Positions 50,690 to 54,946 of a stretch of 64,000 bases of DNA are shown here, in pieces; positions within the stretch are counted from its first letter, which is position 1, and every line of letters starts with the position of its first letter. The DNA is from an uncultured Granulosicoccaceae bacterium (GTDB lineage Bacteria; Pseudomonadota; Gammaproteobacteria; Granulosicoccales; Granulosicoccaceae). Location of the stretch: positions 220,920 through 284,919 of the forward strand of contig CALGLE010000004.1 in NCBI GenBank assembly GCA_937930305.1, read 5' to 3'. Both the position numbers and the translations under genes were made by a program. The notes beneath the pieces are model-generated. The model worked only from the letters and a program-made list of their open reading frames with translations, did no database searches and was not told where the DNA came from.

Positions 50690-51439
50690 ATGACCACACT
50701 TGCAATTATCGGCGGCACCGGTTTATCCCGCATGGAAGGCCTGAGCATTGATCGTCGCGAAATGATCAAGACACCTTTTGGTGCACCATCCTGTCCCATT
50801 TTGTTTGGTGAATTCGGTGGCGTATCCGTAGCATTTTTAGCACGTCATGGCAGCAAACACCAAATCCCTCCGCATCAGATCAACTACTGTGCGAATTTGT
50901 GGGCGTTAAATTCGGTTGGCATCAATCGGATCATTGCGGTGGGAGCGGTCGGTGGTATAGCTGATGATTGCAGCACTGGCTCAGTCGTTGTGCCCGATCA
51001 AATCATCGATTACACGCACGGACGAGAAAATTCGTTCTACGACGGCACCCACGGCTTAGAGGGTGTGACCGTGCGCGCCATCGATTTCACAGAACCCTAC
51101 GACGCCTCGTTACGTCAAGCGCTTATCGACGGTGGGCAAGCCAGCGGTGAAACGGTGGTTAGCAGCGGCACTTACGGTGTGAGTTCAGGCCCACGTTTAG
51201 AAACGGCTGCAGAGGTGCGTCGCATGGAACGCGATGGCTGCACTGTGGTGGGAATGACTGGCATGCCTGAAGCGGCGCTGGCGCGGGAGGTGGGCATTGC
51301 CTACGCCTGCTGTGCTGTCGTTGTGACCAAAGCCGCAGGCAAAGACGGCCCGGTGGACACAAACGCTTTGCCAGCCTCGGTTGAGGGCGGCATGAAAAAC
51401 GCCAGAAATATCTTAGAGTTAGCCATCGCCAAGCTTTAA
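50690..51439 (+). CDS. S-methyl-5'-thioinosine phosphorylase (MTAP/PNP family)
   Basis: The 249-residue protein belongs to the trimeric purine nucleoside phosphorylase / MTAP family: 'LAIIGGTGLSRMEGL', 'FLARHGSKHQIPPHQINYCANLWALNSVGINRIIAVGAVGGI', 'VVPDQIIDYTHGRENSFYDG', 'GTYGVSSGPRLETAAEVRRMERDGCTVVGMTGMPEAALAREVGIAYACCAVVVTKAAG'. The 'MTGMPEAALARE' version and short length agree with the methylthioinosine phosphorylase described from Pseudomonas, part of methionine salvage from polyamine synthesis. A true MTA phosphorylase is possible but less likely. It follows the ispF gene with the same orientation. Confidence 0.8.
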   Translation: MTTLAIIGGTGLSRMEGLSIDRREMIKTPFGAPSCPILFGEFGGVSVAFLARHGSKHQIPPHQINYCANLWALNSVGINRIIAVGAVGGIADDCSTGSVVVPDQIIDYTHGRENSFYDGTHGLEGVTVRAIDFTEPYDASLRQALIDGGQASGETVVSSGTYGVSSGPRLETAAEVRRMERDGCTVVGMTGMPEAALAREVGIAYACCAVVVTKAAGKDGPVDTNALPASVEGGMKNARNILELAIAKL

Positions 51440-51531
51440 AATGGATTTATTGTGCGTTTTATGGTGGAAAATGCAAATCAAACCACATTTCTTATCGACT
51501 AATGACCCGTCAATGTGGCTAGGTGACTGAG

Positions 51532-51548
51532 TCGGTACAGCGATTGCT
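51532..51548 (+). promoter_or_regulatory. Putative sigma-54 (RpoN) promoter for the Amt-histidine kinase gene
   Basis: TCGGTACAGCGATTGCT fits the -24/-12 consensus TGGCAC-N5-TTGCW: GG at 51534-51535 and GC at 51546-51547 are separated by exactly ten bases, and the TTGCT half is perfect. The predicted transcription start is about 51559, 22 bases before the start codon. A short GGTGGA segment further upstream (near 51463) only weakly resembles an NtrC half-site. Confidence 0.55.
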
Positions 51549-51580
51549 ATTGACAGCATTCCAACCTGGGATTTGTTGCT

Positions 51581-54500
51581 TTGATCGCTGTAAATTCATT
51601 AGATTATATTTGGCTACTCATCTGTAGCGTCTTAGTGATGATCATGCAGGTGGGTTTTTGCATGCTGGAATCTGGCTTTGTGCGGGCCAAGAACGTCATC
51701 AATGTGGCGTTCAAAAACATGATGGATTTCGTCACAGCGTGCCTGATGTTCTGGGCCTTGGGCTTTGGCCTCATGTATGGCGCCTCGGTGTACGGGTTGT
51801 TTGGCTCCTCATTATTCTTCGTGCAACACGGAAGCGTTAACGGCGCTTTTCTCATCTTTCAAATTATGTTTTGCGGCACAGCCGCCACCATTATCGGTGG
51901 TGCATTAGCTGAGCGCACTCGCTTCTCCGTATTCATCATTATCAGTGTCATTGTGGCCTCGCTAGTGTATCCCGTCGCAGGCCACTGGGCTTGGTCTGGA
52001 GCCGACACAGGGGACAGCACGGGTTGGTTGGGTCAACTGGGGTTTATCGATTTCGCAGGTGGGATGGTTGTCCATGGCGTCGGCGGATGGTTTGCGTTAG
52101 CCGCCGTCATTGTTATCGGTGCTCGCATCGGTCGCTTTGATCCGAATAAGCCGCCGATTCGTGGATGGAATTATCCGGTGTCAACTGCTGGCGTGTTAGT
52201 GCTGTGGTTTGGATGGTTTGGATTTAATGGCGGCAGTGGGTTAATTTTTGATAGCTCGGTAAGCGCTGTTTTACTTAACACCACGTTAGCGGCTGCCAGT
52301 GGAGGCATGACGTTAGTTGTTATTGCTTGGTTGCGTGATCACAGGCCAAACATCGCTGCCTCATTGAATGGTGTGTTGGCGGGATTGGTGGGTGTAACAG
52401 CGGGTTGTCATATTTTCTCCACTTTTGATGCCATCTTAGTGGGAATCATCTGTTCCATCGTTTGTGCCTATGTCACGGTTAAATTGGAAGATTTTGAAAT
52501 TGATGATGTCATCGGGGCCTTCCCGGTGCATGGGGCTGCAGGTGTTGCTGGCACCTTATTAGTCGCCTTATTAGGTGATGCTTCAGCGTTTCCGCAAGGC
52601 CACACGGTTCTTCAGCAATTTGGTGTGCAGGCATTAGGTGCTGCCGCCATTTCAGGCTGGGCATTTGGTGTCGGTTTCTTGCTGCTAGGGCTGTTAAACA
52701 AAGTGATGTCCTTGCGAGTGAGCCCAGAAAATGAAGTGCAGGGATTAAACATATCGGAACACGGTGCTTCAACTGAATTAGTTGATTTACTGGGCGATAT
52801 GCACGTAAAGGGAGATGATGGCGACTTCTCTGGGTCGGTGGAAGTTGAACCGCATACGGAAGTGGGGCAAATTGCATTTGAATACAACCGTGTGCTCGAG
52901 CGTGTTCGACGAGAAATCGAAACCCGTGAAGAAGCTTGGCGACAACTGAAAGAGGCATCACATTTTCAGTTTATTTTTGAAAATACGCACGAAGGTATTG
53001 TGCAGTTGTCGTTAAAAGGTGAAATTTTAGAATCTAATCCAGCGGCAGCGTCATTGTTGGGTTTTAACAATAGCGACCAGTTGGATGAAAAAGCGGGCGA
53101 TTGGCTCTGCCATTCCATATTCGCTGACTCGGAATTTAAAAACCAAATCATTGAAGAGTTGGATGCGTCCGGTGTTGTGCTGGAAAAAGAAATAGACTTC
53201 CGACGTTTTGTTGATGGTAAAGCAGGTTCCATCAGCGCCAGTTTACGATTAGTTGAAGGCAATGAAGATGAAGGCGCTTGTTATCTATTGAGCATGATCG
53301 ATATCAGTGATCGTCGTGATAATGAACGCTTGCGAGTGGCTAAAGATGCGGCTGAAGCTGCTAACGATGCAAAAAGCCTATTTTTAGCGAACATGAGCCA
53401 TGAAATTCGTACCCCTTTAAATGGGGTGACTGGCATGATCGAGTTATTAAGTCGCACGGAACTTTCATCTCAGCAATCTCGCTACACCGATATTGCGGCA
53501 ACTTCTGCTCAAGCCCTTTTAAGCGTTATCAATAACATTCTTGATGTGTCTAAAATTGAAGCCGGTAAGCTTGAACTTGAACACGACGAATTCGATTTAT
53601 ACGAAATATTGGCAGATGTTGCTGATATGTTCGCACCACAAGCCGCTGCTAAGCAACTAGAGATCATTAATGCCGTTTCACCTGATATTCCTGCACGTGT
53701 CATTGGAGATGGTGAACGGCTTCGACAGGTCATTATAAATCTGTTAAACAATGCCGTGAAATTTACAGAATCGGGCACCATTTCACTGGAAACATCGGTA
53801 AAGGCATCGCTGGAAGGCGCTGTGCATCTGCAATTTGCAGTTAAAGATACCGGCTGTGGCATTCCCGATAAAGCGTTGGTTTCATTGTTCGATGCATTTA
53901 CTCAAGCTGATATTTCCACAACTCGGGAATTCGGTGGAACTGGCCTTGGATTAACCATTTGCCGTCAACTCATTGAATTGATGCGTGGCCACATTCGAGT
54001 AGAAAGTGAGATGGGTGTGGGTACTCAATTCATCATCGATTTGGTGATGCCCGTTGGAAATTTAGCCGCCGATGCTCCATCGGGCAACCTAGATACTTCT
54101 CATGCAGGTAAACGGGTGTTGGCTGTTGATGATCATCCGGCCAATTTAACTTTGGTATGCGATCTTTTAAAGCCCTACGGTGTGAATGTAGCCACTGCCG
54201 AAGAAGGGTATTCCGCGCTTAAAGTGATTGAGAAAGCGCATGACATACGTCAGCCGTTTGATTTGATGTTACTGGATTTCCATATGCCCGGTATGGATGG
54301 GGGTGACTTAGCGCGAGCCGTACGAAGAAATCCTAACTTCAACTCGATGAAAATCATCATGCTGACATCAGTCGATCAAGCGATATCATCTGTTGAGCGT
54401 ACTGAATTAGGTATTGAAACCAGTATTACCAAGCCATTACGTGCGTCACGATTTTTCGAAGCTATTAACGCTGTGCTATCGAATTCGGTGGCGCCGAAAC

Positions 54501-54946
54501 GTGCTGCTGATAAAGCAAAAATTGCTGGCAATGCGGCTGTGGTAGACGAGCCCAAAAACAGTATAGGCAGTGTGTTGTTGGTCGAAGATAACCTGGTCAA
54601 TCAAATGGTGGCAGAAGGCATATTACAGGACATCGGATACGCCGTCACCGTTGTTTCAAACGGGCAAGAAGCGTTGGACGCGCTGCAGCAGCAGGTATTT
54701 GATGCGGTACTGATGGATTGTCAAATGCCAGTAATGGATGGTTTTGAAGCGACCCGTCGTTGGCGGGAACACGAACGTTCCCACAGCCAACCCGAGTTAC
54801 CCATTATTGCATTGACCGCCAATGCGGTTAAAGGCGATAGAGAGCGTTGCTTGGTGGCGGGTATGAACGAATACGTGACGAAACCGATTGATGTAAACAC
54901 CTTGTCGGGCGTATTGGCGCAATTGATACAGCAGCGAGCAGCTTAA
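51581..54946 (+). CDS. Ammonium transporter-hybrid histidine kinase fusion
   Basis: This 1121-residue protein combines a complete Amt domain with signalling modules. Residues 8-375: Amt fold with about 11 helices, including '[26 protein letters not shown]', twin-histidine positions H165 ('FAGGMVVH') and H317 ('[12 protein letters not shown]'), and '[12 protein letters not shown]'. Residues 376-460: linker '[33 protein letters not shown]'. Residues 460-580: PAS. Residues 598-670: HisKA with H607 ('[11 protein letters not shown]'). Residues 705-825: HATPase with N, G1 'DTGCGIP' and G2 'GGTGLGL' boxes. Residues 845-965: REC1, D899. Residues 996-1118: REC2, D1046. It probably senses or imports ammonium and signals by phosphorelay. 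It begins with TTG after a CTGGGA-like site. No GlnK, Hpt or output regulator gene is adjacent. Confidence 0.93.

Follow-up and report, generated by a model that had tools for sequence, protein, structure and literature searches.

A conserved candidate sigma-54 promoter precedes an Amt-histidine kinase gene in an uncultured Granulosicoccaceae bacterium

The window analysed here, a stretch of 64,000 nucleotides from an uncultured Granulosicoccaceae bacterium, carries on its plus strand (51581..54946) a gene for a protein of 1121 amino acids in which domain searches recognised, in order, an Amt domain, a PAS domain, HisKA and HATPase domains and two receiver domains. The fusion of an Amt domain to HisKA/HATPase is that of an Amt-histidine kinase sensor. 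The gene opens with TTG, and alignment of the orthologues places ATG in most of them at exactly the matching codon, ten codons ahead of a conserved tryptophan; TTG at 51581 is therefore very likely the true start codon, and the distance from the upstream element to the gene is likewise very likely right. The upstream neighbour is a phosphorylase superfamily gene (PNP_UDP_1, MTA-phosphorylase-like) at 50690..51439 on the same strand. In the gap between the two genes, at 51533..51548 (plus strand), lies the sigma-54 (-24/-12) promoter element CGGTACAGCGATTGCT, with GG at 51534-51535 and GC at 51546-51547 separated by exactly ten bases. Counting 12 bases past the C at -12, the predicted +1 is 51559, which would leave a 5' leader of 22 nt (51559..51580, plus strand) before the start codon. 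Sigma-54 promoters such as those of glnA and glnK follow the consensus TGGCACG-N4-TTGCW (PMC3844500, PMC12316311). The window element shares with them the GG-N10-GC arrangement, TGC at -12, an ordinary leader length, an RpoN encoded in the genome and conservation among orthologues, but it departs from the consensus at -26 (C) and at -23 (T), the latter position being T or A in all nine orthologous copies described below.

The Amt domain of the window protein is closely related (E 1.9e-94) to that of Ks-Amt5 from Kuenenia, an Amt-histidine kinase ammonium sensor whose kinase responds to ammonium (PMC5764959; PDB 6eu6), and it is likewise fused to a HisKA kinase, although the window protein adds a PAS domain and two receiver domains. 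By analogy with the ammonium-dependent kinase activity shown for Ks-Amt5 (PMC5764959), the window protein is a predicted ammonium sensor. The closest solved Amt domain is found in the 'Ammonium transporter' chains of PDB 8qj3/8qpf (E 4.7e-105), but these are much shorter (644-661 aa), and the match spans the Amt domain and a short stretch beyond it, the kinase excluded. No description of the transcriptional control of Amt-kinase fusions was found in the literature searched, and the paper on Ks-Amt5 makes no mention of NtrC or of a promoter (PMC5764959). A second Amt-kinase, which has no sigma-54 element, stands in a row with a glutamine-synthetase-like gene and an Amt gene at G000:C1 ~129800-136800 (L198 5837-12790), and G010, G013 and G015 likewise contain Amt copies side by side. 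A 688-aa kinase at L186 2995-5059 (G010:C35) lacks an Amt domain; its homology to the Amt-kinase is confined to the cytoplasmic half.

Taken as a single match, the window site is not beyond chance. With at most one mismatch allowed, the 4.2 Mb genome contains 86 copies of the pattern TGGYACRNNNNTTGCW but 174 of a reversed control pattern, and for the exact core GGYACNNNNNTTGCW the corresponding counts are 13 and 46; there is thus no genome-wide enrichment of the sigma-54 pattern over the reversed control. Most of the 13 core matches fall in ORFs. Three of them, the window site included, lie outside any sense or large antisense ORF and are followed downstream by a gene start at no more than 70 bp; for the window site and one other this distance is at most 40 bp. 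A matrix built from 28 published intergenic Salmonella sigma-54 sites (PMC3844500) gives the window site 8.3 bits. No fewer than eight other positions in the window outscore it, as do most of the known sites and all eight orthologous copies in the relatives (8.8-13.4), which leaves it last among the nine. With a mixed matrix, in which the family's own glnA and glnK sites were added to those from Salmonella, the site reaches 10.7 bits and ranks sixth in the window. Two further matrices were set aside. One ranked the site first with a score of 14.7, but was too generous and, since the published-site matrix disagreed, was not used as proof; the other, derived from 30 glnA/glnK sites of the family, scored the site at 4.5 and was judged to be overfitted to those two genes. 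What does exceed chance for the window site is its position together with its conservation.

A set of 115 relatives supplied Amt-kinase orthologues, whose upstream regions were compared. Within the family, the element is present in nine genes, each from a different genome (the window gene and those of G025, G015, G021, G022, G032, G029, G039 and G040), held at a near-fixed distance from the gene with predicted leaders of 22-26 nt in all nine; in G032, GA replaces GC. Mean pairwise identity among the nine is 0.81 in the 11 constrained columns, compared with 0.34 in the spacer and -11 columns and 0.27, the random level, in the flanks, both over 100 columns upstream and on the downstream side. 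The window and its nearest orthologue, in G025, agree at 12 of the 16 site positions, against 23 of 100 upstream and 3 of 22 downstream. The columns that vary are largely those that are also free in the sigma-54 logo, and the sigma-54 columns form the only conserved block 5' of the start codon. After shuffling of the upstream sequences, the chance per gene of meeting the observed pattern at that distance was 0.3% (0.003); the figure is descriptive, since the nine-gene set was recognised only once the search had been made and the positions of the test pattern were taken from those same nine genes. The preliminary description had reported a -24/-12 match with exact GG-N10-GC spacing and a distance of 22 bases from predicted start to start codon, and had named a lack of conservation in relatives as grounds for refutation, a lack that is not seen in these nine genes; our analysis otherwise bears these points out, with the correction that the 16-mer occupies 51533-51548, the quoted start being off by one base.

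In most of the nine element-bearing genomes the genes neighbouring the Amt-kinase are unrelated. The element is missing from 8 of the 17 family Amt-kinase genes for which upstream sequence is available: seven of these form one clade, several members of which adjoin a second Amt gene, and G038 supplies the remaining one. In the tree, the window gene and its G025 orthologue are sister to the motif-less clade, and the other seven motif-bearing genes form a separate, supported clade. Because the motif-bearing genes are split between two places in the tree, the element would either be ancestral and subsequently lost, or have been gained twice.

We therefore consider that 51533-51548 is probably a genuine sigma-54 promoter, from which transcription of the Amt-histidine kinase gene starts at about 51559 and which has been carried along with that gene through differing genomic neighbourhoods; we put the probability of this reading at roughly 0.83. 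The analysis shows the element itself with its spacing, a correct start codon and selective conservation, and the genome encodes one RpoN, which scores above the NCBIfam cut-off. RpoN polymerase would bind 51533-51548, an enhancer-binding protein would open the complex, and the cell would make more of the ammonium sensor only in the condition in which that protein is activated. A conserved sigma-54 promoter thus offers a direct, testable entry to the question of when the sensor is made. We judge it very unlikely that the -24/-12 match is incidental and that most transcription of the gene is instead the work of sigma-70 polymerase, whether from a promoter between the two genes or as read-through out of the phosphorylase gene. 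In favour of this view, the pattern is not enriched genome-wide, and the G000:C1 paralogue and its clade lack the element; read-through is also possible, since no terminator-like site was seen between the end of the phosphorylase gene at 51439 and the promoter. A TTGACA at 51550 was considered as a sigma-70 promoter and rejected, however, as the scan found no partner hexamer and no good -10 and the hexamer is not conserved among orthologues, in which the sigma-54 columns are the sole block kept upstream.

Granted a sigma-54 promoter, an activator is to be sought. The genome encodes NtrB and NtrC above their NCBIfam cut-offs (NtrC, TIGR01818, 649 bits against a cut-off of 558.6), together with three further sigma-54 activators: a FleQ-like protein (PF06490 domain), a receiver type adjoining a kinase and a PAS-domain type. 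NtrC and the FleQ-like protein are the only activator groups found in all nine element-bearing genomes, and G029, G039 and G040 have just two activators each (E <= 1e-50), orthologues of these two. Were the nine promoters to share a single activator, it should therefore be one of this pair, and the most likely activator of the window promoter is either NtrC, acting without a canonical box, or the FleQ-like protein, although the assemblies compared are 76-98% complete, so that an activator could be missed. A receiver-type sigma-54 activator gene lies about 3 kb downstream of the Amt-kinase at L188 8667-10271 (G015) and L283 (G022:C380 near 10291); it was rejected as the cognate activator, as no orthologue was found in the window's genome.

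It is possible, though less likely than not, that NtrC activates the promoter through weak or degenerate enhancer sites, in which case the sensor would belong to the nitrogen-limitation regulon and be induced during nitrogen shortage. Besides NtrB and NtrC the genome has glnK-amtB (on C18), and glnA lies directly ahead of ntrBC on C9. In the glnA and glnK promoters of the family and genus, NtrC boxes precede -26 by about 80 and 111 bp, and in this genome the boxes CGCACCAACTTAGTGCA (glnA) and CGCACTAATACAGTGCA (glnK) each lie 81 bp upstream of -26. By contrast, a matrix made from 49 glnA/glnK boxes, on which known sites score 12.8-24.9 and the glnA/glnK controls were positive, found no NtrC enhancer in the 250 bp that precede the window promoter (51283..51532, plus strand), the best score being 0.6; neither the family's usual 80 and 111 bp positions nor the region about 100-140 bp upstream of +1, where boxes of the NtrC regulon are expected, holds one. 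The orthologues are divided. The closest, in G025, has a good NtrC-like box, GGCACCAAAGTGGCGCG, which scores 12.6 and lies exactly 80 bp upstream of -26, as in glnA and glnK, and G015 has a weaker one (8.7) at 70 bp, but the other six of the eight orthologous promoters yielded nothing convincing. Likewise, an unsupervised enhancer search run on nine glnA promoters recovered the NtrC box with 123 bits (36 at most after shuffling), whereas the nine Amt-kinase promoters gave 41 bits (39.6 at most after shuffling), which is not convincing. FleQ acts close to promoters, and activation by the FleQ-like protein from sites near or within the promoter would agree with the missing distant enhancer; the ammonium sensor would then belong to a motility or surface-lifestyle regulon, a reading that we regard as rather doubtful despite the presence of such a protein in all nine genomes. 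A count of TGAC/GTCA repeats ahead of the window site showed no significant enrichment and gave no convincing FleQ site, and the argument from shared activators is weakened by the incomplete assemblies. Because no FlhA-family match was found in G029 or G040, the FleQ-like protein there may serve something other than flagella. It is unlikely, as a more specific proposal, that sigma-54 sets sensor kinase expression through a FleQ-type activator and not NtrC, tying ammonium sensing to the motile/attached decision, a theme that the fusion of Amt domains to c-di-GMP enzymes in other bacteria (L029, L020) would fit.

The reading given in the preliminary description thus stands for the sigma-54 promoter of the Amt-kinase gene, upheld by the conserved motif, RpoN and the start codon, and is unsupported at the step 'via NtrC': the NtrC sites that it suggested looking for upstream are clear at glnA and glnK but missing from the 250 bp examined here and from most of the orthologous promoters. 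It had also taken the promoter as independent support for nitrogen sensing, which is more than the promoter can bear; sigma-54 serves many functions, so its involvement is no independent proof, nor does sigma-54 control alone show membership of the nitrogen regulon. Such membership is possible, but its expected hallmark is absent at the window promoter itself. The difference from glnA and glnK, whose NtrC boxes are clear within these same genomes, cautions against equating 'sigma-54' with 'nitrogen regulon'. Better support for nitrogen sensing comes from the close relation of the Amt domain to that of Ks-Amt5 (PMC5764959), a similarity at the sequence level.

Several further loci touch on these subjects. 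FleQ-like, FleN-like and FliA-like genes are grouped at L289 7894-11321 (G000:C52), with no other flagellar genes nearby, assignments made by eye apart from the FleQ domain. A sigma-54-like site, CGGCACATGCGTTGCA, lies 36 bp ahead of an HlyD-type adaptor gene at G000:C4:159350-159365 (L010 1500-1515), with no exact NtrC box upstream of it. In other gammaproteobacteria, Amt domains are fused to GGDEF or PAS-GGDEF-EAL (L029 3965-5911, L020 3935-7069), and in L029 a sigma-54-like site, TGGTGCGCTATTTGCT, is found about 56 bp ahead of the Amt-fusion gene.
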